The position numbers were made by a program, and so were the translations under genes. The notes beneath the pieces are model-generated. The model saw nothing but the letters and a program-made list of their open reading frames with translations, made no database searches and was not told the DNA's origin. From contig DAOVDS010000003.1 of assembly GCA_030669415.1 (NCBI GenBank), positions 1-41,578 of the forward strand: a stretch of DNA of 41,578 nt, in the 5' to 3' direction. This DNA comes from a bacterium. GTDB lineage: Bacteria > Planctomycetota > SKW154 > DAOVDS01. Shown here one piece after another: positions 1 through 28,556 of the stretch. Within the stretch, counting starts at the first letter, position 1. Every line of letters begins with the position of its first letter.

Positions 1-72
1 ACATATACCCCGGCATGGGGCTCTTGGGGCCCGGCCCCCAAAATATTTAGATTATAAACAAACCCCCCCCAC

Positions 73-100
73 GCGGCCCGCCACGGGGCGGGCCGCTTTT
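73..100 (+). terminator. Rho-independent terminator
   Basis: Perfect 10-bp stem gcggcccgcc-acgg-ggcgggccgc followed by tttt. Confidence 0.75.
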
Positions 101-181
101 CTCACGGAACCTCCTATGCCGACCTTTCCCGTAAAAAAGGGAAGGTTGACGACCCTGGCGCAGGCTGATAGATTGTTCGAG

Positions 182-586
182 ATGGAACTTCTCAGAATCG
201 TGCTTGTATGCCTCGCGATACTCCCGCTCGGGCTTGGCTCTATTCACGTGGCGGAGAGGCTGCGCTGGTATGAATCGCGCCGGGGCCTCTGGAAAGTCGC
301 GGCCGCCTCAGGTGCCGCCTTCGCCGGCGTGTGCGCACTTCTCCTGCTTCAGGGCGGAGTCGCTTTCACTGCCGGGGCATACTTGCAGACAGTCCTGCAA
401 ATGCTGTTTGCGACCTACTTCCCAGTGGCGCTTGCCTACCTGCTTCACTGCGTCGTCTGGGTAATCACCCGGCTGGGCAGGCGTGTTTTCCTTGATGAGC
501 TGTTCAGCCGCGCGCTTGTTCTTGCAGTCTTCGCCGCAATCGACCTCGCCGCCTATCTCGCCCTTGCGTTCCTCTTCGGCACCTGA
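182..586 (+). CDS. Small multi-pass membrane protein upstream of PBP2, MreD-like position
   Basis: ORF 116-586 with hydrophobic segments; position just before mrdA-rodA. Start may be ATG 182 or 116; no specific family recognised. Confidence 0.5.
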   Translation: MELLRIVLVCLAILPLGLGSIHVAERLRWYESRRGLWKVAAASGAAFAGVCALLLLQGGVAFTAGAYLQTVLQMLFATYFPVALAYLLHCVVWVITRLGRRVFLDELFSRALVLAVFAAIDLAAYLALAFLFGT

Positions 587-681
587 CACCTTTCTCCCGC
601 CTGTGCACAACCAGGGTCTTTTATTTCGCCGGCTCCTGTGTTAGACTTGATGCCTCTTGTTTCCGGGACGGGCTTGGATTA

Positions 682-3039
682 GTGTATAAAAACAGACTTG
701 CTGCCTTTCTTGTGTTGTTCCTGCTCACCTTCGCCGTGCTTGTGTGGCGGCTCGGGTGCATGCAGATAGTGCAGTGCGACTACTACGAGGAGATAGTCGA
801 GCGCAAGCGCCGCAGGGTTCAGATATATTCGGGACCGCGAGGGACAATCTACGACTGCGACGGCGAGGTGCTTGCAACAGACATGCAGGTGTTCGACGCC
901 TCGTTCATACTCCCCAAGCTTGACCCGCTGGTGGCTGTAGTGCCGCTTGTATGCCGGACGGCGGGCCTGAGCCGGGAGAAGTTCGAGGAGCACCTCGACC
1001 TGGCGAAGCTGAGGGCTGCAATTGAAGAACAGAGTGTTCAGACGCTGCTGCCGGAGATAGCGCCGCGGGCGGCAAAGAGGCTGCGCTACCTTGCCGGGAA
1101 GTACCCGGAGAAGTACGGGGCGCTGATTGTGCATGAAAGGGAAGTTGACGGGCGTGCTGTCTTTTCGCTCCGCGCGGACCTGGCAGAGCTCTGCCGAAAA
1201 GAAGAGACTCTGCGGCTGGCAACGGCGTTTCTTGGCGCTTCCTACGACGAAGCTCTCAAGGAAGTGAATCGGGTCGAAGAGAAGATTTCAAAAATAGCAA
1301 ACTCCTACCAGCGCCGCTACGAACTCGACATGCCATACACGCTCGCCAAGAAACTCTCCCGCGACCAGGCGGAAGAATTCGAGGTGCGATACCGGCGCTA
1401 TCCCGGAATAGTCGTGACAACCCGGACACAGCGGGTGCACCCGCACGGCGACCTGGCCTGCCACGTTCTGGGTTACCTGCGCGCGCTCAGCAGCACCGCA
1501 CAGTACGAGGACCTCAAGAAGCAGGGGCGAATCATCCGGCGCGGCTTCAGCGAACTCAGGGACTTCGAGAAGATTGAGGCGAACCCGTTTTTCCATGACG
1601 ACAGTGTGGGGGCCTCGGGAATAGAGCGTATCTACCAGAAAGAGCTCCAGGGTCGAAAAGGCGCAAGACTTCTGGAGCGGGACACTCGCACACCCGAGCA
1701 AACCGTGCTCAGCGAAATACTGCCCGGTCCGGGTTTGGACCTTCACCTGACACTGAGTGCAAGAGTCCAGCGCGCCGCGCAGGATGCATTCTCCGAGGAA
1801 GGGCTTGCCGGCGCGGCAGTGGTCATGGATGTTAAGACTGGCGCAGTAATAGCGCTTGCCTCGGCGCCGGGATACGACCTGGACACCTTCCGACGGGACC
1901 AGAGCACGTTCAACAAGCATCTGCAGGAACCGTACCCGCTCGTGAACCGCGCGCTCAGCGCTGTCGCGCCCGGCTCAGGCTTCAAGCTGGTTACAGCCTT
2001 GGCGGCCCTTGAAGAAGGTGCGATAACACCGCAGACACACTTCTACTGACGCGGTTACTACAAAACGCCCGGTGCTTTCAGGTGATGGAAGAGGGGCGGG
2101 CACGGGTCGGTTGACCTGTCCACGGCGATTGAAGGCTCCTGCAACGTGTACTTCTACGGGACTGGCGAGAGACTGGGGCAGGAGCAGTTGGGTAATTGGG
2201 CGCGGATTCTCGGGTTCGGCCGCACCACGGGGATTGACCTTCCCGGCGAATGCGCCGGCCTGATTCCGAACCCGGACTGGAAGAGGGCGCGCGCCTCCCG
2301 AACCAGAGACAGGCTCAACAGGATGCAGGCGGAGCTCGAGTACACCCTCGAAGAGATAAGGGACATAAGCCGCCTGAGCCCGAAGGGCAGCTCTACTGTT
2401 CAGAAAGGAGAGCAGGAGACGGTGGAACAGCCTTCGGCAGACCTGGGTCTGCGAAAGGCGCGCGTGGAGCAGTTGAAAAAGGATATTGCGCGAGAGAAAA
2501 GCAGGCTTGCACTTTTCGAGAGCGAGCGGGCATGGGTGCCGGGCGACACCCGAAACATGGCGATTGGCCAGGGCAGTGTCCTCGCAACACCACTTCAGAT
2601 GGCGCGGCTGGCAGCCGCGATTGCCAACGGCGGAACGCTGCTGCAGCCACACCTGCTGCTGAGAAGCAGCAGCTCTACTAACTCCTCACTACTTTCTGGA
2701 AAGGAGAGAGTAGAAAGTAGAGCTGGGCTGAAGCCCGAGCGCAAGCTGCCAGTCTCCCCGGCTAACCTTGAGGTCCTGCGCAGAGCCATGCGCGATGTGG
2801 TTTCCGGAAGGCAGGGCACTGCTCGCCAGAAGGAGCTGCGCAAGCATGACGTGGCGGCAAAGACAGGCACGGCCGAGCTTGGCGGTGTCTGGAATAATGG
2901 CTGGATACTGGGTTTCGCGCCTTACGGGGCGCCGCAAATCTCATTTGCGGTAGTAGTGGAGCGCACGAAGTACCACGGCGGCGAGGTCGCAGGCCCGCTG
3001 CTTGCAAAAATTCTGGATGCGTACTTTGGCACAGATTAG
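682..3039 (+). CDS. mrdA: Penicillin-binding protein 2 (peptidoglycan D,D-transpeptidase), read through two in-frame TGA codons as a predicted selenoprotein
   Basis: ORFs 682-2049 and 2146-3039 share one frame; the intervening codons read HFY-TGA-RGYYKTPGAFR-TGA-WKRGGHGSVDLSTAIEGSCNVYFYGTG. PBP2 dimerisation domain, SGFK (SxxK), SCN (SxN), KTGTAE (KTG); followed by rodA. Confidence 0.85.
2047..2049 (+). other. Candidate selenocysteine codon 1 (in-frame TGA) in PBP2
   Basis: TGA at the family-conserved Cys position in FY[C]RGYY; coding continues in frame on both sides. Confidence 0.7.
2083..2085 (+). other. Candidate selenocysteine codon 2 (in-frame TGA) in PBP2
   Basis: TGA at the family-conserved Cys position in FR[C]WKRGGHG. 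Confidence 0.75.
2102..2119 (+). promoter_or_regulatory. Candidate bacterial SECIS hairpin for TGA 2
   Basis: ACGGGTC-GGTT-GACCTGT: 7-bp stem (one G-U), GGUU tetraloop, 23 nt between TGA and loop. Confidence 0.55.
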
Positions 3040-4144
3040 TGTAAAACTGTCGAGGTTCCGCTGGGGACTGTTTCTTGTGACCTGTGCGTTACTGGCGGTC
3101 GGTGTCACTTTCATCCACAGCGCCTCGTACAAGATTGTCACCGGCACCTACTCCGGCTACGCCGCCAAGCAGATGGTATGGGTCGGGCTCGGGCTTGGCC
3201 TTTTCTTCGCCCTGCTGTTTGTGAGTTACCGCGACATCGGAAGAATCTCACCGCTTATCTACATCGCCAACCTTGCGGGACTTGCGGCGGTCTATGTCTT
3301 CGGCGTCTCTGTACACGGCTCGCAGCGCTGGATACCTGTCGGCACCTTCCGTGTGCAGCCCTCGGAGTTCATGAAGCTCGTGGTAATAATTGTGCTTGCC
3401 CGGTATGCGGCAAAAGGGCAGAAACTCAGCGAATTCAGAAGCCTGATTGTACCGGGAATACTGTGCCTGATACCCATGGTTATGATTGCGCAGCAGCCTG
3501 ATATGGGAACGACGATGATTTTCATACCTGTGTTTTTTGCCATAATGTATGTCGGCGGAGCGCGCGTTAAACACCTGCTGCTTCTGGCGGCGGTTGGGAT
3601 TGCGCTTACCCCGGTGCTGTGGTTCGGCGTACTCAAAGATTACCAGAAAGGCCGGCTCACGGCGTTCGTCAATCCTGAGAGCAAGGAACACAGGTTAAGC
3701 GAGGGTTACCAGCTTATCCAATCGAAAGTAGCCATAGGTTCAGGCGGGCTGACAGGCAAGGGTTACGGCATGGGCACGCAGAACACCCACGGTGTGCTGC
3801 CCGAGCGCCACACTGATTTCGTCTTTTCGGTGGTTGGCGAGGAGTGGGGATTTGCAGGCTGTGTTTTTGTGCTGGGACTCCTGTTTGGTATAATGCTTTT
3901 ATGCCTTGACGTGGCCTACTCAACGGCCGACCCGTTCGGCAGGCTGCTTGCGGTAGGAGTTGCCACTGTTATTTTCGTGCAGACTGTAATAAATGTGGGG
4001 ATGGCAATAGGTCTTATGCCCGTTACAGGCCTGACACTGCCCTTTGTGAGCTACGGCGGCTCATCGCTTCTGCCATCCATGGCGGGCCTGTCGCTGGTGG
4101 TAAATGTGGGCATGCGTGAAGTGAAGTCGCTCGGGCTCGAGTAG
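3017..4144 (+). CDS. rodA: RodA/FtsW/SpoVE family peptidoglycan glycosyltransferase
   Basis: Multi-TM SEDS protein with HTDFVFSVVGEEWGF and PFVSYGGSS motifs; overlaps the end of mrdA; start approximate. Confidence 0.93.
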   Translation: MRTLAQISVKLSRFRWGLFLVTCALLAVGVTFIHSASYKIVTGTYSGYAAKQMVWVGLGLGLFFALLFVSYRDIGRISPLIYIANLAGLAAVYVFGVSVHGSQRWIPVGTFRVQPSEFMKLVVIIVLARYAAKGQKLSEFRSLIVPGILCLIPMVMIAQQPDMGTTMIFIPVFFAIMYVGGARVKHLLLLAAVGIALTPVLWFGVLKDYQKGRLTAFVNPESKEHRLSEGYQLIQSKVAIGSGGLTGKGYGMGTQNTHGVLPERHTDFVFSVVGEEWGFAGCVFVLGLLFGIMLLCLDVAYSTADPFGRLLAVGVATVIFVQTVINVGMAIGLMPVTGLTLPFVSYGGSSLLPSMAGLSLVVNVGMREVKSLGLE

Positions 4145-4166
4145 AGCGCTTCTGGGAGATAGCGTT

Positions 4167-5558
4167 ATGGAAATCAAGTACGACTATACAAGCGTCATGG
4201 CCTCCGCGGTGGGTTCTGAGCACGGGCTGACTGAAGCGGAGCTGTCCGAAGCTCTCGAGAGCTACAGCGGGGTTCCCCGGAAGCTGGAAGAGCTACGAGC
4301 CTCGGGCGGTGCGGATTACATGAACCTGCCTTATGACGGCGCTCTGACAGAGTCGATATCCGGGCTGGTAGATGCCAAACGGGGTCGGTTCGAGAACTTT
4401 ATCGTGGTGGGTATCGGCGGCTCCAGCCTGGGGTCCCGCGCGGTGTTTGAAGCGTTGAGCCACCCGTATCACAATCTACTGCCTGCGAAGGAGCGAGGCG
4501 GCCCGCGGATGTTCTTCCCGGACAACGTGGACCCGGAACTGCTGGCCGGGCTCACAGACACACTCGACCCGGCCAAGACGGTCATAAACGTGATTACCAA
4601 GTCAGGCAGCACCGCCGAGACAATGTCGAACTTCCTCGTCCTCGCACACTGGCTGATGTGCGGCCCTGATGCCAGCCCTGCCGACCACATTGTCGCAACC
4701 ACCGACCCGGAGAAAGGCGCGCTTCGCAAGATGGCGCGGGAAGAAGGTTTCCAGACATTTCCCGTGCCGCCGGGTGTTGGCGGCAGGTTCTCAGTCCTGA
4801 GCGCGGTAGGCCTCGTTTCAAGCGCGTTTGCAGGCATTGATGTCAACAGGCTGCTTACAGGCGCAGCCGCAATGGATAAACGAATCAGGGAATCGAAGCC
4901 GGCGACCAACCCGGCGCTCGTGGCTGCCATAATCCACACCCAGCTTGACCGCAAGAAAGGCAAGAGAATGGCAGTGTTTATGCCATACGCACAGTGCCTG
5001 CGTGCGACCGCTGACTGGTTCCGCCAGCTCTGGGCGGAAAGTCTCGGCAAGAGACTTTCCACAACGGGGGATGTCGTGAACACCGGGCAGACGCCAATTG
5101 CAGCACTGGGGACAACAGACCAGCACTCGCAGATACAGCTCTACGCCCAAGGGCCCAATGACAAACTAATCACCTTCGTGGAAGTGAAGAAGTTCCGCTC
5201 TGAAGTTAGAATGCACGAGTTGTACGAATCAGATGCGACTTCGTATCTCTGGGGGCGCAGCCTTGGCGAACTCATGCTTGACGAGCTCGCCGGGACTCGA
5301 ATTGCCCTTACCGACGCCAAGAGACCGAACGCGACGATAATCATGCCTGTTGTGAACGAAGAAACTCTGGGGCAGCTTCTCTTCATGCTCCAGGTGCAGA
5401 CCTCTTACGCGGGAATGATATACGGGGTCAACCCCTATGACCAGCCCGGTGTCGAGGCCGGGAAAGTGGCGGCGTATGCGCTTATGGGCCGCGCAGGCTT
5501 CGAGGAGAAGCTGGCGCAAATCAGGCGCAAGAGCGCCGCACCCCGTCTGGAAGTATAG
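4167..5558 (+). CDS. pgi: Glucose-6-phosphate isomerase
   Basis: VVGIGGSSLGSRAVFEAL and INVITKSGSTAET sugar-isomerase motifs; full-length ORF. Confidence 0.95.
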   Translation: MEIKYDYTSVMASAVGSEHGLTEAELSEALESYSGVPRKLEELRASGGADYMNLPYDGALTESISGLVDAKRGRFENFIVVGIGGSSLGSRAVFEALSHPYHNLLPAKERGGPRMFFPDNVDPELLAGLTDTLDPAKTVINVITKSGSTAETMSNFLVLAHWLMCGPDASPADHIVATTDPEKGALRKMAREEGFQTFPVPPGVGGRFSVLSAVGLVSSAFAGIDVNRLLTGAAAMDKRIRESKPATNPALVAAIIHTQLDRKKGKRMAVFMPYAQCLRATADWFRQLWAESLGKRLSTTGDVVNTGQTPIAALGTTDQHSQIQLYAQGPNDKLITFVEVKKFRSEVRMHELYESDATSYLWGRSLGELMLDELAGTRIALTDAKRPNATIIMPVVNEETLGQLLFMLQVQTSYAGMIYGVNPYDQPGVEAGKVAAYALMGRAGFEEKLAQIRRKSAAPRLEV

Positions 5559-5597
5559 CCAGAGCACCCGAACACGGCCTGTGTCATCAAAATCATC

Positions 5598-5625
5598 TTG
5601 ACGAGCGCGCGTTTGTGGATATAAT
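5598..5625 (+). promoter_or_regulatory. Sigma70-like promoter for the pilM-secretin locus
   Basis: TTGACG-16 nt-TATAAT. Confidence 0.6.
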
Positions 5626-5684
5626 TGCGCAACTGCTTTCGCGTGAGGGAGAGACAACTACACAGCCCGAGGAGATACCCGCCA

Positions 5685-7478
5685 ATGATAGTAGAAGATG
5701 CCGTCTGGGGAATTGATATCGGGAGGTCCTCGCTAAAAGCCATCCGCATGCACAAGCTGCGGGACACGGTCGAGATAACCGGGGTCGATGTAATCGACTA
5801 CTACGGAAGCTCGGAGGAGCAGCCGAGTACCGCGGAAATCAGACAGGCGCTGGCGCAGTTCAGGCAGCGCAACAAGGTGAAGGCGGGCGATATAATCGCC
5901 ATTGCGGTGCCGGGCTACGCCGCGTTCACCAGGTTCATAAAACTGCCTCCGGTCGAGGACAAGAAGATAGGGGATGTCGTCAAGTACGAGGCGGCACAGC
6001 AGATACCCTTCCCCTTGAGCGATGTTATCTGGAGCTTCCAGAAGGTAGACCGCAAGTACGAGCCGGGCGAGGAGATTGATGTCGGCATCTTCGCCATCAG
6101 GGAAGAGATCGTTATGAATCTTCTCGCCGACTTCGATGCCGCCAAGCTCCACGCGGACATAATAACGATTGCCCCGCTCGCGCTGTTCAACTTCGCCAGG
6201 CACGAGATGGACATACCGGAGGAGTCGGTGGTGGTTGACATAGGGGCGGACCACACCGACCTGGTCGTCATCGAGTACGGGAAATTCCACGTCAGGAACC
6301 TGCCGCTGGCGGGAAACGACATCACCAAGAAGCTGATGGAGGAGTTTGAAATCAGTTTCGCGGAAGCCGAAAAGCTCAAAATCAAGGCTGCCCAGAGCAA
6401 GCAGGCGGACAAGCTCTTCGCCGTGATGCAGCCGACGCTGCGCGACTTCGTCGGCGAGATAATGCGCTCGCTCTCTTTCTACAGGTCGGGCGCCAAGCAG
6501 ATGGTGCTCCTGGGCAACGCTACGAGGCTCGAAGGGCTGGCAGACTACTTCGCATCCAACCTGGACATGAAAATCAACCGGTTCTTTGACATCATGCACA
6601 TGGAGCTCGCCCACGATGTGGACATAACCCTGCTGCAGGAGCATCTCCCTTCTTTCGGCGTGGCGATGGGGCTGGCGCTGCAGGGCGCGGGCAAGGGGCA
6701 GAGTTCCATAAACCTGATGCCCCGGAAGCTCTACAAGGCGCGCCAGATAGAGCGCAAGCAGCCCATGTTCATCGTCGCGGCCGCGCTCCTGTTTTTTCTT
6801 ATCCTGTTCATGTACCTGTCCAGCTCCAGCCAGATAACGACGCTCGATGAATCGCTGGAAAAGGCCAACGTCGTCCTGACCGACCTCGAGGAAGTCGAAG
6901 ATGAGCAGGCCAAGCTGAAGGACTCCTCCGGCTACCGCAAAGACTCGCTGGAGTTCGTGGAGTTCGCGAAGCGGCGCAACATGCCTCTCGAGATAATAAA
7001 CAAGATAAACCAGGCTGTACCGGACAACCTGGACGCCATCCCCCCCGTGCTCCTGGGCAAGTTCGGCGGAGATCTTTTCCCTCCATATCCCGATGCAGAA
7101 ATGGATACCACAAACAGGGAGAAGGTGTGGCTGCTCGGGCTCGAATTCAATCAGGTGAAAGACCCGCAGGACAAGGCGGGTATCGAGGTCGTCCTGACAG
7201 CCGCGGTTATTGCGGATGACGAGGATGTGAAGACGATTCAGCGCCTCAAGAGCATCTTTGCGGACAGGCTCGCGGCCCAGTTCGACAAGAAGGCCGATGA
7301 CATCCTCGAGCTCCCGGCGACGACGAGGATAAGGAGCCTCTCGCCAAGCAGGCGGGCCGCACAGAACGATGACGGGTCGAGGCAGACCTACTACATGTTC
7401 AAGCTCAGGTGGACGGTGCCGTTTCCCGAGGAGCAGGAAAAAGGGCCTGATAAGGCCCCGGAAGAGCCGGACAAATAA
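5685..7478 (+). CDS. pilM: PilM-like actin-fold pilus assembly protein with C-terminal PilN-like TM segment
   Basis: VWGIDIGRSSLKAIRM, VVVDIGADHTDLVVIEYGKFHVRNLPLAGNDITKKL (PilM/FtsA-type ATPase); later a TM segment and periplasmic region. Confidence 0.8.
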   Translation: MIVEDAVWGIDIGRSSLKAIRMHKLRDTVEITGVDVIDYYGSSEEQPSTAEIRQALAQFRQRNKVKAGDIIAIAVPGYAAFTRFIKLPPVEDKKIGDVVKYEAAQQIPFPLSDVIWSFQKVDRKYEPGEEIDVGIFAIREEIVMNLLADFDAAKLHADIITIAPLALFNFARHEMDIPEESVVVDIGADHTDLVVIEYGKFHVRNLPLAGNDITKKLMEEFEISFAEAEKLKIKAAQSKQADKLFAVMQPTLRDFVGEIMRSLSFYRSGAKQMVLLGNATRLEGLADYFASNLDMKINRFFDIMHMELAHDVDITLLQEHLPSFGVAMGLALQGAGKGQSSINLMPRKLYKARQIERKQPMFIVAAALLFFLILFMYLSSSSQITTLDESLEKANVVLTDLEEVEDEQAKLKDSSGYRKDSLEFVEFAKRRNMPLEIINKINQAVPDNLDAIPPVLLGKFGGDLFPPYPDAEMDTTNREKVWLLGLEFNQVKDPQDKAGIEVVLTAAVIADDEDVKTIQRLKSIFADRLAAQFDKKADDILELPATTRIRSLSPSRRAAQNDDGSRQTYYMFKLRWTVPFPEEQEKGPDKAPEEPDK

Positions 7479-7532
7479 TGGAATGTCGGTGCGGGACCCG
7501 GAAATACCCCGCATAGCTCGGAGCGAAGATTC

Positions 7533-8777
7533 ATGAAGAAACACTCGATGTGGATTATCCTCGGTGCGATACTGCTTGTTGAGATTATCACCTACCTCGC
7601 CTTCGTCTCTCCCCGGGGAACTGTGATTGCGGACAAGGTGCGCAAGCTCAAGAGAACCACAAAAGCCCTGAGAGACTATGCGGACATGGGCGGGAAAATC
7701 CCGACGAGGCAGGTAAACAAGCTTCACAAGAAGAACAGGAGGACTCTCAAAGATGAGCATGATAGCTGTGTCGAGTTCTTCAAGGACGAAGACAGGAGAT
7801 TCAAGCAGTGGTTCGAGGAGCTGGGCATCAAGGACTGGGAGCGCCAGCCCACCCCCGCGCAGTTCCAGTCGCGCTACAGGGACCAGTTCAACAAGCTTCG
7901 CAAGTTCTGCGAGGATAATGGCATCTCGGTGAGCGATGAAGTTGCCACGCTCCTGGTCGAGCTCAAGAGCGGCGAGAAGCTCAAGGGCACACTCCTTCGT
8001 GAAGATGACACTGAGATAGTCATCCAGGTTGCCGGCAAGGAGACCATCCTGGCGCAAACAGAGGTCAAGAGAAAGGTGTGGGTTGCGCTCAAGCTCACAT
8101 CTGAAGAGCAGGCGACAGTCCAGAACTATATGAGATTCGCGCCGCCTCCTCAGGTGGATACGGACGAGACAGTCCCCGACAACGCCGCCGGGGGCTTCTG
8201 GGAGACGAGCAAGCTCAACGCCAAGAACCTCCGGACCGCACAGATGCAGTTCTGGGTGCAGAAGGCGTTCGTGGAAGCACTGAAAGAAGCCAATGGAAAG
8301 CAGCTTGTCTTCGCATCCTTCTACAAGGAGCGCGACGTCAGGAGAGGCAGGAAAGAGGAAGAGAGAAAGCCGCAGACCGCAATCGAGGCGCACTTCGAGC
8401 GAATGCCCGTGACCATGCTTGTCAAGATGCCCTACGGCTCAATCGCGACAATGCTCCAGTACTTGAACGCGAAATGCCCCGTCAACATGGAGTTCAAGAG
8501 CCTCAGGGTGGTAAAGCCCCTTCTGAGCACCATTTCGACCAGCCCCCACCCCCTGGTCAAGCTCGGTGTGACTTACACCCAGCAGGATGCGTTCAACGGG
8601 GTAATGCCGAAAGTGTTCAGCAAGCACGGCGGCGTCTACTTCGGGGAGGTGGTGAGAGACCAAAAGAGGAATCTGCCCGACCAGGACCAACTGATTAGCG
8701 AGCCGCCGGTCCTAGTCGAGTTCTCCTACTACGTGATGATGAAGATAGAGCCGAAACCAGCGGCAAAGAAACCGTAG
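7533..8777 (+). CDS. PilO/Amuc_1100-like inner-membrane pilus-associated protein
   Basis: Single N-terminal TM helix, coiled coil, C-terminal region; position between pilM and secretin. Confidence 0.5.
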   Translation: MKKHSMWIILGAILLVEIITYLAFVSPRGTVIADKVRKLKRTTKALRDYADMGGKIPTRQVNKLHKKNRRTLKDEHDSCVEFFKDEDRRFKQWFEELGIKDWERQPTPAQFQSRYRDQFNKLRKFCEDNGISVSDEVATLLVELKSGEKLKGTLLREDDTEIVIQVAGKETILAQTEVKRKVWVALKLTSEEQATVQNYMRFAPPPQVDTDETVPDNAAGGFWETSKLNAKNLRTAQMQFWVQKAFVEALKEANGKQLVFASFYKERDVRRGRKEEERKPQTAIEAHFERMPVTMLVKMPYGSIATMLQYLNAKCPVNMEFKSLRVVKPLLSTISTSPHPLVKLGVTYTQQDAFNGVMPKVFSKHGGVYFGEVVRDQKRNLPDQDQLISEPPVLVEFSYYVMMKIEPKPAAKKP

Positions 8778-14336: not shown

Positions 14337-16490
14337 ATGGCCGACGTTGCAGTCGCCTTCCTGTGGCATTATCACCAGCCGGACTACCGCCACCCGCGCA
14401 CGCGTGAGGCGCTGCTGCCGTGGACGCGGCTCCACGGGGTCAAGGACTACTACGCCATGGCGAAGATCGCCGCCGAATTCCCGGCAGTCAGGCAGAACTT
14501 CAACCTCGTTCCATCCATGCTTGACCAGCTTCTCGAAATCGCCGGCGGCACGGCGGACCTCTACCTGCGCTACTCACGCAAGCCTGCATCCGAGCTGAGC
14601 CCAGAGGAGCGCGCCTTCATAGTAGCAGAATTCTTCAGCACCAACTGGCGAACCATGATTGAGCCTTTTCCAAGGTTCGCCGAGCTGCTGGGTCTGAGCG
14701 GCAAGAAATCCGCGCAGTCCGCCCACGATGCGGCCCGGCGTTTCGGCAGGCAGGACCTGCTTGACCTGCAGGTCTGGTTCAACCTTGTCTGGTTCCATCC
14801 CTACAGCCGGGAGAAAGAGCGGCTCGTGGCCGGCCTGATAGAGAAGGAGAGAGGCTTCACCGAGGATGAGAAAAACAAGCTCCTCGACCTGCAGATAGAG
14901 CTTCTGGGCGAAGTGGTGCCACTTTACGGCGCCCTCGCGGACTCGGGTCAGGCGGAGCTTACCACATCTCCCTACTATCACCCGATTCTGCCGCTTCTGT
15001 GCGACATCGAGACAGCCCACCAGGCAATGCCCGGCGTCCCGCTGCCGCTTGAGTTCCCCAGAGCACCCGAAGATGCCCTCACCCAGATGCGAAAGGCAAT
15101 CCGCAGGCACGAAGAGCTCTTCGGCACCAGGCCCAGCGGTGTGTGGCCCTCCGAGGGCGGCGTGAGCACGCAGGTAATAGACATCCTCGCGCAGGCCGGA
15201 ATCGACTGGTGCGCCACAGACGAGGAGATACTGTCAGCCACGCTCTCGGGCTCCGGCAGGGTTCTCAGGCTCGATGGCCCCGGGCGCGCCGAGCTGCTCT
15301 ATCGCGGCTACCGCGCAGAGTCGAATGGCCACTCCGTCAAAGTGGTCTTCCGCGACCACTACCTCTCGGACCTGATTGGCTTCACCTATTACGCCTACGA
15401 CCCTTCTGAGGCCGCCGCCAACTTCGTCAACCACCTGCACCGCATCGCCGAGACGGCCGCGCGCAAAGGCTCCGGAACCTGGATTGTACCTGTGATTCTC
15501 GACGGCGAGAACGCATGGGAAGCCTACCCGTGCGGCGGGCTGGTATTCCTGCGCGAGCTTTTCGGCCTCCTGAGCGTCTCGAAGCGCGTGCGCACGACAA
15601 GAATCTCAGACTACCTCGAAGATGCCGACCTCAAGCCCCTAAGCGGCCTGTTCGCCGGCTCGTGGATTGGGCACAGCTTCCGGGTCTGGGTTGGCGAAGA
15701 GCTCAACAACAAGGCCTGGAACTGCCTCGGGCGCACGCGCAAAGCGCTCGTCAAGGCCCGCGACCGGCTCTCCGAGGAAGCCGCAGGGCAGGCGTGGGAG
15801 CAGATCCACATGGCCGAGGGCAGCGACTGGTTCTGGTGGCTCTCACAGCAGCACAGCAGCCCGCATGACGAGCAGTTCGACATCCTTTTTCGCACCCACC
15901 TCGCGGGCGTCTTCGAGGCAATTGGCGAAGAGATTCCGCCCTTTGTTGATGAGCCTATCCTGCGCGTCGCCGAAGCCGCCTATACCCAGCCGTACGCCCT
16001 GCTCGATGTGCGTATTGACGGGCGCAGGTCGGACTACTTTGAATGGCTCTGCGCCGGCCGCTACGACCCGGCGGGCGACCAGGGCGCCATGGCGCGGCCC
16101 GCAGGCTCGCTTGTGAAAGAAATCTACTTCGGCTTCGACCTGGATAATTTCTACCTGAGAATAGACCTGACCAGCGACGCGGCCGAACTCCCGGATGCAT
16201 CGCTGGCGGTCCGCTTCCTGGAGCCCGGGGAAGTGGAGCTTCGCGCAGAATCCCTGCGCAGTAAGACGCTCATGACGCAGGCGCGCACCGAGGTGGGCGA
16301 GATGGCGGCCAACAGGTTTGTCGAGCTGGCCATACCATTCCGGGCGCTCGGCATCCGGCAGGGGCAGCGCGCCAAGTTCCAGGTGGAGTTGTCGACACCC
16401 GGGGGCGCAGTCGAGAGACTCCCATTCTCCGGCCCGATTGTCTTCACTTCCCCCACCGACGAGTTCGACCAGGTGCAGTGGCAGGTTTGA
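14337..16490 (+). CDS. Glycoside hydrolase family 57 protein (alpha-amylase-like)
   Basis: AFLWHYHQPDY N-terminal motif, WPSEGGVSTQVIDILAQAGIDWCATDEE, ILDGENAWEAYP. Confidence 0.88.
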   Translation: MADVAVAFLWHYHQPDYRHPRTREALLPWTRLHGVKDYYAMAKIAAEFPAVRQNFNLVPSMLDQLLEIAGGTADLYLRYSRKPASELSPEERAFIVAEFFSTNWRTMIEPFPRFAELLGLSGKKSAQSAHDAARRFGRQDLLDLQVWFNLVWFHPYSREKERLVAGLIEKERGFTEDEKNKLLDLQIELLGEVVPLYGALADSGQAELTTSPYYHPILPLLCDIETAHQAMPGVPLPLEFPRAPEDALTQMRKAIRRHEELFGTRPSGVWPSEGGVSTQVIDILAQAGIDWCATDEEILSATLSGSGRVLRLDGPGRAELLYRGYRAESNGHSVKVVFRDHYLSDLIGFTYYAYDPSEAAANFVNHLHRIAETAARKGSGTWIVPVILDGENAWEAYPCGGLVFLRELFGLLSVSKRVRTTRISDYLEDADLKPLSGLFAGSWIGHSFRVWVGEELNNKAWNCLGRTRKALVKARDRLSEEAAGQAWEQIHMAEGSDWFWWLSQQHSSPHDEQFDILFRTHLAGVFEAIGEEIPPFVDEPILRVAEAAYTQPYALLDVRIDGRRSDYFEWLCAGRYDPAGDQGAMARPAGSLVKEIYFGFDLDNFYLRIDLTSDAAELPDASLAVRFLEPGEVELRAESLRSKTLMTQARTEVGEMAANRFVELAIPFRALGIRQGQRAKFQVELSTPGGAVERLPFSGPIVFTSPTDEFDQVQWQV

Positions 16491-16577
16491 GAAAAAATAG
16501 CAGACAGAAAACAGTGGACGCTATACTGGTTCCTGCTGTATGCTGCCTGCTGTCTATCGTCCACTCAGGAGCTTGAG

Positions 16578-17576
16578 ATGCCGGAGCTGCGCAAAGACCC
16601 CATTATCCGCAGGTGGGTCATTATTGCAAGAGAGCGGGCTAAGAGGCCCTCGGATTTCAGGCACAAGGGTACGCAGGAAGATGACGCCTTCTGCCCGTTC
16701 TGCGAGGGGAACGAGGACAAGACCCCGCCGGAGATACTTGCCTACCGCAGGGCCGGGACACAGCCCAACAAGCCGGGCTGGCGTGTCAGGGTCATAGCCA
16801 ACAAGTTCCCCGCGCTGCGAATCGAAGGTGACCTCACCAAGCGCGGGATAGGGATGTACGATGAGATGAACGGCATTGGCGCGCACGAGGTGTTTATCGA
16901 GACGCCCGTCCACCACCGCTCCTCCTCGGCCCTCGAGGCGAGCGAGCTCGAGGAAGTCATCTGGGCCTACCGCGACAGGATGGTTGACCTCAAGAAGGAC
17001 AGGCGCCTCATCTACGGGCTCATATTCAAGAACGTGGGGCGCGAGGCGGGGGCGTCGCTTACACACACCCACTCGCAGCTTATCGCCACTCCCTTTGTGC
17101 CCATCAGAATCTCGGAGGAAATCCGCGGCTCCAAAGATTATTACTCCTACCGCGGACGATGCATCTTCTGCGACATGGTCAGAGAAGAGCTTTCTTTCAA
17201 GGAGAGAATTGTAGCCGAGACTGCCGAGTTCCTCGCGTTTGGCCCGTTCGCATCGAGGTTTCCGTTCGAGACGTGGGTCGTGCCGAAGAAGCACTTCTCG
17301 CACTTCGAGAACTCGCCCAAGCAGGTCATAGAGGACTTCGCCCTGATTCTCAAAAAGACAATTACCAGGCTGGAGATTGCACTCGAACAGGCCCCGTACA
17401 ACTATCTCATCCATTCCTCGCCGTTCGACTGCGACTTCCTGAAAGAGTACCACTGGCATCTCGAGATAATACCGCGCCTCACGAAAATGGCTGGCTTCGA
17501 ATGGGGAACAGGCTGCTACATAAACCCCATTTCGCCCGAAGATGCATCCAAGTATCTGCGTGAGATAGAATGTTAG
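16578..17576 (+). CDS. galT: Galactose-1-phosphate uridylyltransferase
   Basis: ELRKDPIIRRWVIIARERAKRPSDF, THTHSQLIATP, YHWHLEIIPRL (HIT-type site). Confidence 0.92.
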   Translation: MPELRKDPIIRRWVIIARERAKRPSDFRHKGTQEDDAFCPFCEGNEDKTPPEILAYRRAGTQPNKPGWRVRVIANKFPALRIEGDLTKRGIGMYDEMNGIGAHEVFIETPVHHRSSSALEASELEEVIWAYRDRMVDLKKDRRLIYGLIFKNVGREAGASLTHTHSQLIATPFVPIRISEEIRGSKDYYSYRGRCIFCDMVREELSFKERIVAETAEFLAFGPFASRFPFETWVVPKKHFSHFENSPKQVIEDFALILKKTITRLEIALEQAPYNYLIHSSPFDCDFLKEYHWHLEIIPRLTKMAGFEWGTGCYINPISPEDASKYLREIEC

Positions 17577-17647
17577 AAGCTCCGGGCCTGGGCCCCGAGA
17601 CGGACCAAGCCCCGGGTTTTACACCCGGGGAAAGAAAGGATAACGCG

Positions 17648-19117
17648 TTGAAAGTAATCCTCGTTTCACCGGAAGTTGTCCCATTCGCCAAGACGGGCGG
17701 CCTCGCCGACGTCGCCGGCGCGCTGCCGCTGGCGCTTTCAAAGCTCGGGCACGCAGTCTCGGTCTTCATGCCCCTGTACCGGCACGTCGTGGATCGCGAG
17801 CTCGCGCTGGAGCCAACCGGCATCGAGCTGTCTTTCCACGTCTATCACCGCGAGCAGAAGGCGACCATCTGGAAGGGTGAATTCCCAGGCACCACCGTGC
17901 CGGCCTACTTCGTTGAGCACGATGGCTTCTTCTATCGCAGAGAGCTCTACGGTGATACCAGAGGCGCTTACCCGGATAATGCCGAACGGTTCGCGTTTTT
18001 CTCGCGCGCCGTGCTCGAGGCGGTTGTCGCGCTGGGGATAGAACCTGATGTTTTCCATTTGAACGACTGGCAGTCGGCGCTTATCGCGGTCTACCTGCGC
18101 AGCATCTTCGCCGGAGGGCCTGTCCTGGGCAAATCGGCAAGCCTGCTTACAATCCACAACCTCGCTTACCAGGGACTTTTCCCCGAGTGGGAGTTCAACT
18201 TCACCGGCCTCGGGTGGGAGCTTTTCAACTGGAAGGAACTCGAGTACCACGGCAAGGTCAACTTCCTCAAGGGCGGCATTGTCTTCGCCGACCTGATAAA
18301 CACTGTCTCGAAGAAATACTCGCAGGAGATACAGACCGCGGAGTTCGGCGCCGGGCTCGAAGCGGTCCTGTCGTCAAGAACGGAAGACCTTTTCGGTATC
18401 CTCAACGGCGTTGATTACCAGAACTGGAACCCGGCCACCGACAAGCTGATACCGGCAGGCTATTCTCCAGAGAGCATCTCCGGCAAGGCCAAATGCAAGG
18501 CCCACCTGCAGGAAATCAACAACCTGCCCCAGAAGCCGGATGTGCCCGTTGTCGGGATTGTCTCGCGCCTCGCAGACCAGAAGGGGTTCGACATTCTTGG
18601 AGAGGCAATGGAAGAGATTATGAAGCTCGACATGCAGCTTGTGGTGCTGGGCACGGGCCAGCAGGAGTACCACGACATGTTCACCAGGATAGGAAAGAAG
18701 TACCCGCAGAAGACTGGCATAAGCCTGAAATACGACAACCAGCTCGCTCACATGATAGAGGCCGGCTCCGACATGTTCCTTATGCCCTCGCGATACGAGC
18801 CCTGCGGGCTAAACCAGATGTACAGCCTCAAGTACGGCACTGTGCCGATTGTCCGTTCCACGGGCGGGCTCGCCGACACCATCACCGACTGCACCAACAA
18901 GACCCTGAAAAAGGGAACGGCCAACGGCTTCTCCTTCAGCGAATACAGCGCCGCCGAACTGGTCAAGGTACTCAAGCGGGCAGTGGACACCTACGCCAAG
19001 AAACCGAAAGTCTTCAAGAAACTGGTCGCAAAAGGCATGGCCCAGGATTTCTCATGGGATAGAAGCGCCCGCGAGTATGTCAACCTCTACGAAAAGGCGA
19101 TAGCCAAACACCACTAA
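17648..19117 (+). CDS. glgA: Glycogen synthase (ADP-glucose, GT5)
   Basis: MKVILVSPEVVPFAKTGGLADVAGALPLAL, LMPSRYEPCGLNQMYSLKYGTVPIVRSTGGLADT; exact start uncertain. Confidence 0.92.
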   Translation: MKVILVSPEVVPFAKTGGLADVAGALPLALSKLGHAVSVFMPLYRHVVDRELALEPTGIELSFHVYHREQKATIWKGEFPGTTVPAYFVEHDGFFYRRELYGDTRGAYPDNAERFAFFSRAVLEAVVALGIEPDVFHLNDWQSALIAVYLRSIFAGGPVLGKSASLLTIHNLAYQGLFPEWEFNFTGLGWELFNWKELEYHGKVNFLKGGIVFADLINTVSKKYSQEIQTAEFGAGLEAVLSSRTEDLFGILNGVDYQNWNPATDKLIPAGYSPESISGKAKCKAHLQEINNLPQKPDVPVVGIVSRLADQKGFDILGEAMEEIMKLDMQLVVLGTGQQEYHDMFTRIGKKYPQKTGISLKYDNQLAHMIEAGSDMFLMPSRYEPCGLNQMYSLKYGTVPIVRSTGGLADTITDCTNKTLKKGTANGFSFSEYSAAELVKVLKRAVDTYAKKPKVFKKLVAKGMAQDFSWDRSAREYVNLYEKAIAKHH

Positions 19118-19148
19118 AAACCTACGGACTTCAGTCCGCGGATATGGG

Positions 19149-19964
19149 TCAATAACCGAGAGCTAATTGGTCTATCATATCTGGTCCTTTTTCCCGGCCA
19201 ACTTGCTGGTAGATTCCAAGGATATTCTCGTAGGTTCCCGGCCCACCCACTATGTCCCAGAATTCTTTACCAATTAGAACCTCGTTAACCATGTCCATGT
19301 AGTTTACGGCAAAACTGTGTTTGTATTCCTCTTTTCTGAGACCATAAGGGTTGTAGGCCGTAGCGTAAAAAGCCCGCGATTTGGGGTACGTACTGTGAGT
19401 CATAGCTTGAATCTGAAGTAATCTTGAGGTGGCTTCCAAACATTGTCCCTTGTTCGGTTTTGGGCTTTTGATTTCGAAGAATAATTGAGTGCCATCTTTC
19501 TTTTCAATATATAGGTCGGCTATGCAGACTCGCTCGACTCCAATGCCACTCTTGCTCAAACCCACGATTTCCTTAACATAGTCGGAGTAATCTACCTTCA
19601 TTCCGCCACTGCCGACTTCAGCTATAATTTCTTCTATCCGTTTTACTGCATCTTTTGTGATTGCGCCACAAATTCTGTGCCCTCGTTCCGCTCTTTTGTG
19701 AATGGACTGACCAACAAGTCGAGCGCATTCCTCAAAAGTAGTACCAAGTTTAGTAGAAAAGGACCTCTCGAATTCAGTTACAAGTAGCAGGCCATGCGGT
19801 AAAATCGACTCGTGAAATGGCTTCAAGTCACCCCGCTTCGATGAATTGCGAACAGGACGAAGTTGCTTCGGTTCGAAACCTTGGTCTTTGTGTTCATCAA
19901 TCATACCTTGAATAAAACCTTCGAGGTATCCTTTAATCTGGTTTCTTACACTTCTTTTAATCAT
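19149..19964 (-). CDS. Type II restriction endonuclease, TdeIII-like
   Basis: PFHESILPHGLLLVTEFERSFSTKLGTTFEECARLVGQ resembles TdeIII-family enzymes; paired with a methyltransferase. Confidence 0.6.
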   Translation of the reverse strand: MIKRSVRNQIKGYLEGFIQGMIDEHKDQGFEPKQLRPVRNSSKRGDLKPFHESILPHGLLLVTEFERSFSTKLGTTFEECARLVGQSIHKRAERGHRICGAITKDAVKRIEEIIAEVGSGGMKVDYSDYVKEIVGLSKSGIGVERVCIADLYIEKKDGTQLFFEIKSPKPNKGQCLEATSRLLQIQAMTHSTYPKSRAFYATAYNPYGLRKEEYKHSFAVNYMDMVNEVLIGKEFWDIVGGPGTYENILGIYQQVGREKGPDMIDQLALGY

Positions 19965-21216
19965 TTTTCTGCCAAATCAAGATGCTTTCGTAGAATGCAT
20001 TCTCCCTGCGTCCTGTACGCCGATTTACGTGACGATCGACTCGGCCGATTGTCCTAAATCCCAAAGGGCGAGGATCATATAGACCATCTTTATCATTCAC
20101 GACAATTATCATAAGTGCATCCTTCCTCATATGGTCTCTCGTATGAGCTATAACGTCGTTGATTCCCTTTATGTATTCTTTTCTTGCGCGGAGTGATCGT
20201 CCATTGTTTGCAGAACCGATCTCTTTTGCATCGTTCTTTTGAAGTCCAAGGAGTTCGTAGGAGTATCTGTGCTGTTCATGGTAGTCAATGAGGCCTACGT
20301 AAGGCGGAGAGGTGAACACCATATCAATATCCTTTGGTAGCTTTCCTTCTCTTGAATCGGCATGATTAACCAATACACTCGCTTCAGTTCTAATTCTGGA
20401 GAATCGCTTCACTCGCGCAAGTGTGTCAATTGTGTAACGACGCAGAAACTTGTACGCTTCATTCACCGGCTGGCATGTTCTTCTATGTTTGTGACAATGG
20501 TAAGAGGTTCTTTGTGGTTTCTTAGGGAAATCAAGATCGTAGTGTTTTACCAATCTTGCTGAACGTGCGGCACGCGACAGAACGATTCTGAGGATGTCCT
20601 GGTATGTGTATTCTTTAATAAAGTGGAGATAACACAAAAGATCCTTTTGAGCTGTCTCCGAGAACCAAGTTTTGATGTATTCATTATCAGTTTCGAAAAC
20701 ATCATTCGCCTTGCCATTTAGTTTTTGGAGCTGTTTCTTGAAAAGGACAAGCTGGTTGTTTCCATCCCTGGGACATTCTTGACAAGACAGATGTGCCCTG
20801 TGTTCCTGTAATTTCGACAGGATGTCGTTAAGCTCCTCCTGTAGCAATTCCAAATCATACTTTGCCGTTTTCACTCTTGAGAGTAAGACATTAAAGGCTG
20901 AAATATCAGTTCCGATAGAGTCAATACCCAAGACATTTGCCTCGACGAGGGTTGTCCCGGAGCCGCAGAAAGGGTCATAGACCAATTTGGGTGTAAACTT
21001 TCTCAAGAAAATTTCCACAAGCTGAGGAATGAATTTGCCAAGATAAGGGTGGAGTCTATGAACATGCTTGGTTCTCTTTCTTTCGGGCAGGTCTCGCTCT
21101 GTCCAATTTAGATTCATGTCCTCAAGTCTAGTTTCCGGTGTGACACTCGCGAAGTCTGTCAAGGGCATTTGCTTCTGCTTTTCTGCAATCTTTTTAGCAT
21201 GAACGTTGTCGTACAT
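19957..21216 (-). CDS. DNA methyltransferase (N4-cytosine/N6-adenine type) of an R-M pair
   Basis: YDPFCGSGTTLVEA (motif I) and MVFTSPPYVGL (motif IV); start taken at MYDNVHAKK rather than the ORF maximum 21678, which overlaps the + strand GH57 start. Confidence 0.85.
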   Translation of the reverse strand: MYDNVHAKKIAEKQKQMPLTDFASVTPETRLEDMNLNWTERDLPERKRTKHVHRLHPYLGKFIPQLVEIFLRKFTPKLVYDPFCGSGTTLVEANVLGIDSIGTDISAFNVLLSRVKTAKYDLELLQEELNDILSKLQEHRAHLSCQECPRDGNNQLVLFKKQLQKLNGKANDVFETDNEYIKTWFSETAQKDLLCYLHFIKEYTYQDILRIVLSRAARSARLVKHYDLDFPKKPQRTSYHCHKHRRTCQPVNEAYKFLRRYTIDTLARVKRFSRIRTEASVLVNHADSREGKLPKDIDMVFTSPPYVGLIDYHEQHRYSYELLGLQKNDAKEIGSANNGRSLRARKEYIKGINDVIAHTRDHMRKDALMIIVVNDKDGLYDPRPLGFRTIGRVDRHVNRRTGRRENAFYESILIWQKND

Positions 21217-21486
21217 GGTCTTTACGCCTGCAATTTGCTTGAGACCAACTAAACTGTACACCAGTCTAACATGCAAAGAAAGCTTTTTCAACCTGCATTT
21301 CTCGGAAGAACCTATGAATCGTGATTCCGTTAGAAAGCTGTTCGAACATACCTTGATTTGAAGTGATAATAGTTGAATGGATCTTCTGCCACAGTGTTGA
21401 TTTGCTCGTTTTGATGTTGAACCCGAAAACGCGACAGGTAGAATAGTATCTAAGCAGTTCTTCACTAACTGCACTGAGGAAGAACA

Positions 21487-23604
21487 ATGGACTCTGGAAA
21501 AATATACTTCGCAATTGGGATACACAATCATCAGCCTGTAGGCAACTTCGACGGCGTGTTTGAAGATGCGTACAAGAGAGCCTACCTGCCGTTTCTCAAG
21601 ATGATGGAGAACTACCCGGGCATCAAGTTCGCACTGCACAACTCCGGCTGCCTGCACGAATGGATACAGGAACATCACCCGGAATACGTTGACAGGCTGC
21701 GTACCATGGTGGAACGCGGGCAGGTCGAGATTCTCGGCGGCGGCTTCTACGAGCCTATCCTTACAATCCTGCCGGAGACTGACAGGGTCGGCCAGGTCTC
21801 CAGCTACGCCGAGTTCCTCAAGGACACGTTTGGGCAGCGGCCGCAGGGCGCGTGGCTCGCCGAGCGTGTCTGGGAGCAGTTCCTCGCCTCCTCACTGGCC
21901 GAAGCGGGTGTGCGCTACACCATGCTCGACGACAACCACTTCAAGAACGCCGGGCTCATTGGTCAGGAGCTTCTCGGCTACTACACCACCGAGCACGAAG
22001 GCAGCACCCTGAGCGTGTTTCCCATAAGCGAGCGGCTGCGATACCTAATCCCCTTCCGTCAGGTTGAGGAGGTGATTGAGCACCTTCGCTCGCTTGCCGA
22101 GGACGGCACAGAGCGCCTCATCGTCTACGCCGACGACGGCGAGAAGTTCGGCACCTGGCCCGGCACGCACAAACACGTCTACACCGATGGCTGGCTGGAA
22201 CGGTTTCTCGACGCGCTGGCTGAGAATTCCTCGTGGATTGAGATTATCCACTTCAGCGAAGCGCTTCAGAAGCTCACACCCGCCGGACGGATATACCTGC
22301 CTGACACATCGTACCGCGAAATGGGGGAGTGGGTACTCGAAACGCCGGCCCGTGAGCGCTACGAGCAGCTTGTGGACCTGCTCAAAGACCGCGGCGTCTT
22401 CGACCTGGTCTCTTTCTGCATCCGCGGCGGCTCCTGGCGCAATTACCGCGTGAAATACCCGGAAGCCGCGCGCATGTATGCGAAGATGCTCGAAGTCTCG
22501 CGGCTCGTGAACGCCAGCCGCTCGAAAAAACGCGCCGAGGCGCTGCGCGAACTCTACCGCGGGCAGTGCAACTGCGCCTACTGGCACGGGGTCTTTGGCG
22601 GCATCTACCTGCCGCACCTGCGCACCGCTGTCTACGAAAAGCTCCTTGCAGCCGAGAACCTCGTAAACCGCGCCGGGAAGGCGAAGGTAACTGAAGCGGA
22701 CTTCGACGGCGACGGCTCGCCGGAAGTGAAGCTGTCTAACGGGTCGCTCAACCTCTATCTCAAGCCTTCCGCCGGCGGGCACCTCTACGAGCTTGACTTC
22801 CGGCCCGCCGGGTTCAACCTGCTGAACACCATGGCCCGCCGGGAGGAATACTATCACCGCGAAGTCGGGCAAGAGCAGCACAGCCCGCCGCCGGACGCAG
22901 AGGTCCCTTCAATCCACGAGCTCGGGGCCGATTCGTCCAGCCTGGCCCCACTGCTGAAGTATGACCGCTACAGCAGGGTCTCGCTCCTTGACCATTTCCT
23001 CGCGCCAGGCTATACTCCGGCGACCATCGCAGACTGCGAGTACCGCGAGCTTTCCGGTACAGCCAAGTCGCACCGTGACTTCACCATCGATGAACAGGCA
23101 GGCTCTCTCACAATGCATTCGCGCGAAATCGTCTTCACCCCCGGGGGCGACCGGGTCCTCTCGCTCGCCAAGACTGTCTCGCTCTCAAAAGACCCCGGCA
23201 GCTTTACCGTCACATACTCCTTCCGGAACGCCAGCCCCGCCGCCATCAAGGCCGAATTCGCGGTCGAGTTCAACTTCGCCATGCTCTCCGAGCGCGACCC
23301 CGCGAAATGGTACTTCACAGGAGCCGGCGACAACTCAAAGAAGCAGGGCGGGCTCGGCAGAACCGCAGACCTCGGCGCACACTCGGTCTTCGGCATCCGC
23401 GACGAGCGCCTCCGTCTGCAGATTCGCGTGCACGCTGAGCCAGCGGCTCGCGTGCTGGTTCACCCCGTTTACTCCGTGAACCACTCGGAAAGCGGCTTCG
23501 AGAAGGTGTTTCAGTGCTGCGGGGTATACGTGATATGGGCCCTGGAACTGGAGCCCGGCAGCACAGTCATGTATTCGCTGGATAACTGCATTGACAGACT
23601 CTGA
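21487..23604 (+). CDS. GH57 4-alpha-glucanotransferase/alpha-amylase
   Basis: FAIGIHNHQPVGNFDGVFEDAYKRAYLPFL, RLIVYADDGEKFGTWPGTHKHVY; C-terminal beta domains. Confidence 0.9.
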   Translation: MDSGKIYFAIGIHNHQPVGNFDGVFEDAYKRAYLPFLKMMENYPGIKFALHNSGCLHEWIQEHHPEYVDRLRTMVERGQVEILGGGFYEPILTILPETDRVGQVSSYAEFLKDTFGQRPQGAWLAERVWEQFLASSLAEAGVRYTMLDDNHFKNAGLIGQELLGYYTTEHEGSTLSVFPISERLRYLIPFRQVEEVIEHLRSLAEDGTERLIVYADDGEKFGTWPGTHKHVYTDGWLERFLDALAENSSWIEIIHFSEALQKLTPAGRIYLPDTSYREMGEWVLETPARERYEQLVDLLKDRGVFDLVSFCIRGGSWRNYRVKYPEAARMYAKMLEVSRLVNASRSKKRAEALRELYRGQCNCAYWHGVFGGIYLPHLRTAVYEKLLAAENLVNRAGKAKVTEADFDGDGSPEVKLSNGSLNLYLKPSAGGHLYELDFRPAGFNLLNTMARREEYYHREVGQEQHSPPPDAEVPSIHELGADSSSLAPLLKYDRYSRVSLLDHFLAPGYTPATIADCEYRELSGTAKSHRDFTIDEQAGSLTMHSREIVFTPGGDRVLSLAKTVSLSKDPGSFTVTYSFRNASPAAIKAEFAVEFNFAMLSERDPAKWYFTGAGDNSKKQGGLGRTADLGAHSVFGIRDERLRLQIRVHAEPAARVLVHPVYSVNHSESGFEKVFQCCGVYVIWALELEPGSTVMYSLDNCIDRL

Positions 23605-27125: not shown

Positions 27126-28343
27126 ATGATGATAAAGCTTATGAGAATTCTGGTGTTCGCTTTTGTCGCGGCTCTCACCGGCATTTCCGCCGTAGCCGTC
27201 ATCAACGCGGGCTACGTTATCCCGGGAACGGCGCCCGTAATCGAGGTTATCCACTTTGTCGAAGAGCCACGCATGGAGCGTCCGGAGCCGCAGCCTCAAG
27301 AAGAACCAGAGGGTATCAGCCTGCTCTGCATGTCGCAGGAAGGCTCACGTCCGCCCTATCCATACACGATGCCGGGCTGGTACCTCGAGATGGAAAAAAT
27401 CCTTGAAAGGAGAATGACCGCCAATTTCGATGAAACACCCGCAAGCGAAGCCCTGAGGTTCGTGAGCGACCTTATCGGCATAAACATTATAGTAAGCCCC
27501 GAGGTAGATACCGAAAGCACCGTCACTCTGCGCGTCAGACAGATAAAGGCTAAGAACCTGCTCAGCCTGATACTGGAATGCATGGATGACCTCTCCTATA
27601 CGCTCAAGCCGGAAGGGGTGTACATATCGTACGACCTGGAGCCTTCGGCAAGAGAGCGGATAAATCGCGCCATCAGGGAAGCGTACTTCGAGCTGCGAAA
27701 GGAACACAAATACCGGCAATTCCTCGAAATACTCAATTCTCCGCAGGAGCACGAGTTCGACTGGACTGGAAAAAGCTCCCGGGAAGCGCTTCTCCAAGTA
27801 TGCAAGACCTGGGGTTTGCCGCTAAATCACTCCTGCTGCCGGTCTTGCAGCCTGAACCTTGAAGCGCCCCGCGGGCGCTGGAATGGCAACGCCGCGGCTG
27901 CCATGGAGCGGGCGCTCGACAATGTCGATTTCTCTTATGTATTCGATGCTGACCTCAACTGCATCGATATTGTGCGCAGTGAACAGGCAAGAACCAGGCG
28001 CTATTGGGACTCTATCGGCAGGACTGCGTTCAACAGGTTCAAGAGCAAAGCCCTTGGCTTCTCCCCGGCCGGGATGAAGCTCAACGATATGGTCAAGGAA
28101 ATAGAAAACCGTGCCGGCATCCTTGTTATTCCCGACAGACGAAGCTGGGAAAAGGACATCACAATCAATCTGACCGCCACGAATCCAACCCTGGGTGATT
28201 TGATTGAGCACCTCGAGCGCGAATATCGTATTGTCGCATGGTACTCCATGAACTTCGAGGTCAATTCATCCTGCTACGAGAATGCGCTGGTGCTCTTCTC
28301 CGAAGACAACAAGAACTTGTTTCTCTGCTCCACCTCAGAGTAG
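27126..28343 (+). CDS. Secreted protein with STN/secretin-N-like domains, no secretin barrel
   Basis: RRMTANFDETPASEALRFVSDLIGINIIVSPEVDTESTVTLRVRQIKAKNLLSLIL, closely patterned like the STN region of the secretin at 10062-12695. Confidence 0.65.
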   Translation: MMIKLMRILVFAFVAALTGISAVAVINAGYVIPGTAPVIEVIHFVEEPRMERPEPQPQEEPEGISLLCMSQEGSRPPYPYTMPGWYLEMEKILERRMTANFDETPASEALRFVSDLIGINIIVSPEVDTESTVTLRVRQIKAKNLLSLILECMDDLSYTLKPEGVYISYDLEPSARERINRAIREAYFELRKEHKYRQFLEILNSPQEHEFDWTGKSSREALLQVCKTWGLPLNHSCCRSCSLNLEAPRGRWNGNAAAAMERALDNVDFSYVFDADLNCIDIVRSEQARTRRYWDSIGRTAFNRFKSKALGFSPAGMKLNDMVKEIENRAGILVIPDRRSWEKDITINLTATNPTLGDLIEHLEREYRIVAWYSMNFEVNSSCYENALVLFSEDNKNLFLCSTSE

Positions 28344-28475
28344 CTTCCAGGTTTCTCCTGACCCAAACCGGCTCGCCTGGCGCGGTCTCACCTCAAAGCA
28401 AGGTAAGTGCCGCATATCGCGGGATATGGGTATCAGTCTGTTGGTTTTTGAGGAGATTTTTGAGGAGATTGCCGG

Positions 28476-28504
28476 TTGTCTGCAGCAGGTGTTTGGCGTA
28501 TAAT
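28476..28504 (+). promoter_or_regulatory. Sigma70-like promoter for fdhE
   Basis: TTGTCT-17 nt-TATAAT. Confidence 0.6.
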
Positions 28505-28505
28505 T

Positions 28506-28556
28506 CCACTTTCGTTTCACCGGAGCCGAAGACACTCTTAAGGAGAACGAAAGTGG
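28506..28556 (+). promoter_or_regulatory. 11-bp perfect inverted repeat spanning the fdhE leader and start codon
   Basis: ccactttcgtt (28506-28516) and aacgaaagtgg (28546-28556); right arm covers the GTG start, SD aaggag in the loop. Confidence 0.6.

Follow-up and report, generated by a model that had tools for sequence, protein, structure and literature searches.

A Planctomycetota PBP2 gene with two in-frame TGA codons on a conserved cysteine pair: a predicted selenocysteine zinc site in a cell-wall transpeptidase

Introduction

Can a gene for an essential cell-wall enzyme be interrupted twice by TGA and still encode a functional protein? The question is raised by mrdA, the gene for the class B transpeptidase PBP2, in the 41,578-nucleotide stretch of DNA analysed here (referred to hereafter as the window). 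A previous interpretation made from the letters of this DNA, the sequence-only reading, held that two TGA codons fall on a conserved cysteine pair of PBP2 and that both are decoded as selenocysteine (Sec), giving the enzyme a selenol or a diselenide/redox pair. We examined the gene, its genome and its relatives and arrived at a related but different proposal, to which we assign a probability of about 0.8: mrdA is a selenoprotein gene whose two UGA codons are decoded as Sec, forming a Sec-Sec-His-Cys zinc site beside the SxN active site.

Results

The mrdA frame occupies positions 682-3039 of the plus strand. Translation revealed only two internal stops ahead of the terminal stop, both TGA, at codons 456 (2047-2049) and 468 (2083-2085), as the sequence-only reading had described. 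Read through, the product has 785 aa and contains the transpeptidase (Pfam PF00905) and PBP-dimerisation (PF03717) domains; with TGA taken as Cys it scores 472.8 bits against TIGR03423, the curated NCBIfam equivalog for MrdA (cut-off 455). The SxxK catalytic motif (S432-K435, 1975-1986), the SCN motif (residues 486-488) and KTG are all intact, the eight remaining Cys codons are all TGC, and rodA, which encodes the SEDS glycosyltransferase partner, directly follows (3002-4144, plus strand; PF01098, E 3.6e-100), again in agreement with that reading. The exact start of rodA is uncertain because the TTG taken as its start overlaps mrdA. Family score, motifs and the adjacent rodA together identify the product as MrdA/PBP2. 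A second intact mrdA, which the sequence-only reading had named as evidence that would count against it, was not found in the window genome (G000), where the only other match was a 605-aa FtsI-like gene. A coding-signal scan of the whole window yielded no further plausible read-through TGA; one candidate, antisense to a secretin gene, was judged spurious.

Several other features of the window were recorded. A glycogen-type cluster (14337-23604) comprises two GH57 enzymes, a starch/glycogen synthase and a GalT-like protein. A 1155-aa protein (30608-34075) combines a zinc ribbon, a guanylate/adenylate cyclase domain, an AAA ATPase domain and many TPRs. Near the contig end, a gene for a tyrosine recombinase of the phage integrase family (39485-40900) overlaps a tRNA-Asn on the opposite strand, a likely integration site. 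An 886-aa open frame on the minus strand (5733-8393), antisense to a pilM-like gene and its neighbour, is probably an artefact of composition.

When PBP2 sequences from about 29 further members of the phylum were aligned with the window protein, both TGAs fell on near-invariant Cys columns, which bears out the claimed correspondence with the cysteine pair; each is therefore an in-frame UGA at a Cys of the homologues, and the same is true of the TGA in a second genome, G002, described below. A rare exception is L039, which has Asp at the second column. In an alignment of 18 sequences from several phyla, His474, Gly475, Ser486, Cys487 and Asn488 were invariant and column 468 was nearly so. The chance that two random TGAs would land on exactly this pair is about 3e-6 (1 over 785 choose 2). 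Identity within the transpeptidase domain was 35-53% just past the TGAs compared to 40-48% ahead of them; the sequence past the TGAs is as conserved as that ahead, which counts in favour of mrdA being a selenoprotein gene.

The columns themselves suggest what the pair is for. Residue alignment to 7zg8 matched codons 456, 468, 474 and 487 with D350, D365, H371 and C384 of Acinetobacter baumannii PBP2, the four zinc ligands of that enzyme (PMC9974482). The ligands of Clostridioides difficile PBP2 are D515, D528, H538 and C551, and C. difficile PBP3 and SpoVD carry Cys in place of both Asp ligands (PMC9334274). Mutation of the ligands lowers zinc binding in both the A. baumannii and the C. difficile systems (PMC9974482, PMC9334274), and in A. 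baumannii the mutants lose the ability to confer rod shape (PMC9974482). The window PBP2 thus has the two ligand columns that are Asp or Cys in Zn2+-binding PBPs, the His and the Cys of the SxN motif, and would be a variant of this group in which ligands 1 and 2 are predicted Sec. His474 (2101-2103) is the predicted third ligand and Cys487 of the SCN motif (2140-2142), an ordinary TGC codon, the predicted fourth. Because the TGA columns are two of the four ligands in zinc-PBPs (PMC9974482, PMC9334274), one would expect the residues to form part of a Sec2-His-Cys zinc site. An AlphaFold model of the window PBP2 was confident over most of the transpeptidase domain, and its top structure matches were PBP2. 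The SxN and KTG halves of this domain are separated by an insertion, about 80 residues long and predicted to form two long helices (window 2285-2525, residues 535-615), around which solved PBP2 structures align.

Sec usually stands in for redox-active Cys, and this favours another reading, in which Sec is present at both sites and the pair is a diselenide or selenol redox couple without zinc, reduced for example by a periplasmic thiol-disulfide pathway. It is also favoured by Bacillus subtilis SpoVD, which is reportedly regulated by the oxidoreductase StoA and whose motif was once predicted to be a disulfide (both as cited in PMC9334274). The positions of the TGAs on zinc ligands, the invariance of the other two ligands as well, and the observation of zinc in two C. 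difficile proteins that have Cys at both sites, SpoVD and PBP3 (PMC9334274), argue against it, and we regard it as unlikely. The claim of the sequence-only reading that the residues form a simple redox pair is accordingly not upheld, although a possible redox sensitivity of the predicted zinc site is retained; a diselenide or selenenylsulfide would form only on loss or displacement of zinc.

Does the genome have the means to decode UGA as Sec? G000 is a fragmented metagenome-assembled genome (MAG) of 4.15 Mb in 448 contigs, 92% complete with 5.6% contamination. It contains a tRNA-Sec (71.3 bits, over cut-off, anticodon TCA, that is UCA in the RNA), SelA (E 4.6e-128), and SelB and SelD, both over cut-off, so that selA, selB, selC and selD, which the sequence-only reading proposed to seek in the same genome, are all present. 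Two further genes of G000 have an in-frame TGA, SelD in GAGUASKIG and the formate dehydrogenase FdhA in ARIUHSST, both canonical Sec sites. The contigs that carry Sec genes correlate with the window in tetranucleotide signature at r 0.57-0.80, compared to 0.24-0.53 for loci from other genomes, and contamination is therefore an unlikely explanation. Since tRNA-Sec is widespread among relatives, being encoded by 184 of 294 genomes of the phylum, its presence in both genomes with a TGA-containing PBP2 carries little weight alone. An ORF at 28238-29425 of the window has marginal FdhE (formate dehydrogenase accessory) domains and fits a genome with a Sec-type FdhA.

Conservation of the protein alone cannot tell Sec from Cys, and UGA might be read as Cys or another residue by a suppressor tRNA or by misreading, which would leave an ordinary CCHC zinc-PBP2. 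This is very improbable given a dedicated Sec system with Sec-type SelD and FdhA genes in G000, and given that every other Cys of mrdA is TGC while TGA terminates other genes of the window. The latter also rules out a global reassignment of TGA.

Each of the two TGAs is followed by a candidate bSECIS hairpin. The published consensus calls for a loop of 3-9 nt that has G within its first two positions and, in most cases, G or U after it, an upper stem of 4-16 bp, a spacing of 16-37 nt and an MFE at or below -7.5 (PMC13188914). The candidate for the first TGA (2066-2098, plus strand) has the apical loop GGUGA (2081-2085), 31 nt past the UGA, and the second UGA lies within this loop. The candidate for the second TGA (2095-2126, plus strand) has the apical loop GGUU (2109-2112), 23 nt past the UGA, on a 7-bp upper stem. 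Both agree with the consensus. In its G(G/U) form the rule was passed by 4/4 TGA sites (both in PBP2, G002 and SelD), by 7/58 Cys-codon controls and by 9.5% of window codons, a modest match at the PBP2 TGAs that is supportive, not decisive. The match in G002 adds little because the locus is GC-rich and over half of all its codons pass. Folding energies of the hairpins were unexceptional relative to shuffles, and Sec sites were inseparable from Cys sites by energy. A first rule requiring a GG loop gave 4/4 against 3/58 but was devised after the sites had been inspected and was set aside for the published one. Rfam gave no match in positions 1-6000 of the window.

To place these codons among relatives, 392 genomes of the phylum were surveyed, and in 231 of them a PBP2 match spanned the region of the Cys pair; TGA was sought in the matches listed and, on re-inspection, in the weaker matches (80 genomes), apart from the weak match G242. 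An in-frame TGA in PBP2 was present only in G000 and G002, 2 of the about 231 PBP2-bearing genomes checked. G002 belongs to another family of the phylum, carries a tRNA-Sec (75.2 bits), and combines TGA at the first column with TGC at the second (FDUGDGVFRAARGRNLRCWKSGGHG...SCN), that is a predicted Sec/Cys pair and the mixed state for which the sequence-only reading had suggested searching related genomes. The nearest relative, G001 of the same order (L012), has TGC at both columns and thus Cys/Cys. With two TGAs in G000, one in G002 and none in G001, the sequences suggest either a repeated Cys-to-Sec change or scattered loss. A narrow TGA-specific pattern run over 84,980 genomes found no further PBP2 with an in-frame TGA; its 36 matches were 34 with TGA out of frame and 2 in frame that were not PBP2. 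A second TGA pattern gave nine matches in 391 phylum genomes, in frame in G002 only, and a single-protein scan of the genome-contig collection found no relative. The PBP2 of another member of the phylum (L043, G098:C78) has a single in-frame TAG between its His and SCN ligands; this codon is outside the Cys columns and is no parallel to the TGAs.

In a MAG with some contamination the TGAs might be suspected of being errors of sequencing or assembly, or the gene of being a pseudogene in decay, but this is scarcely credible here, as it would need two third-base changes precisely on the Cys pair with no frameshift or other stop in the sole mrdA copy, whose downstream half is conserved, and G002 is an independent case.

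Discussion

The analysis directly establishes where the codons lie, the orthology of the gene, the identity of the columns, the presence of the Sec machinery and of further Sec genes, and the independent case of G002; Sec incorporation, zinc binding and any regulatory role of the window PBP2 are inferred. The central claim of the sequence-only reading, that both TGAs are decoded as Sec, is well supported by the machinery, the TGAs of SelD and FdhA, the hairpins and G002, with Sec itself still a prediction. SelB and tRNA-Sec(UCA) would decode both UGAs of mrdA, each served by its own hairpin immediately 3', and the two Sec would take the place of both Cys in a Cys-Cys-His-Cys zinc site on a beta-hairpin that packs onto the SxN motif in the active site of the transpeptidase. 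With two selenolates, the thiolate of Cys487 and His474 as its ligands, the zinc would fix the SxN loop and so support cross-linking by the PBP2-RodA elongasome. Selenolates would also make reversible oxidation of the zinc site easier, and for this reason wall elongation may be controlled, through the Sec zinc site, in response to redox state or selenium. We lean, with less confidence than for the selenoprotein assignment, towards the wider proposal that an essential transpeptidase holds an active-site-bracing zinc on two encoded selenolates, that elongation is thereby selenium-dependent and oxidant-sensitive, and that such an arrangement has arisen at least twice (Sec/Sec in G000, Sec/Cys in G002).

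A catalogue published in 2026 lists 119 families of prokaryotic selenoproteins; PBP2 is not among them, and penicillin, transpeptidase, peptidoglycan and cell wall all go unmentioned (PMC13188914). A literature search for a selenoprotein penicillin-binding protein returned nothing relevant; its coverage of subscription papers was partial and a report elsewhere is possible. If our proposal is correct, selenium enters an essential step of cell-wall synthesis, a process unrepresented among the catalogued families (PMC13188914). The window PBP2 would also be a naturally occurring example of Sec predicted to bind zinc; such a function of Sec has been deduced mostly from Cys homologues, and proof of it is awaited (PMC13188914). 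According to proposals from two groups, PBPs may use their zinc-thiolate site as a redox sensor (PMC9334274, PMC9974482), and a natural Cys-to-Sec swap would make that idea directly testable.

The closest known systems are the Zn2+-binding class B PBPs, namely PBP2, PBP3 and SpoVD of C. difficile and PBP2 of A. baumannii. The window PBP2 shares their fold and four ligand columns, and its His and SxN-Cys ligands are identical to theirs. The first two columns are Cys in SpoVD, PBP3 and most relatives of the window PBP2; the window gene differs in having UGA, predicted Sec, rather than Cys or Asp at both, and in having two candidate SECIS hairpins within its coding sequence. The best PDB match over the short region, Campylobacter jejuni PBP2 (8yjx), likewise has the GHG and SCD motif but carries Cys at both columns where Sec is predicted in the window protein. 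With bacterial selenoproteins such as FdhA and SelD the gene shares an in-frame UGA on a Cys column, a downstream hairpin with a GG/GU loop and SelABCD, yet its product is a wall-synthesis transpeptidase rather than an oxidoreductase, with two predicted Sec in a predicted zinc site.
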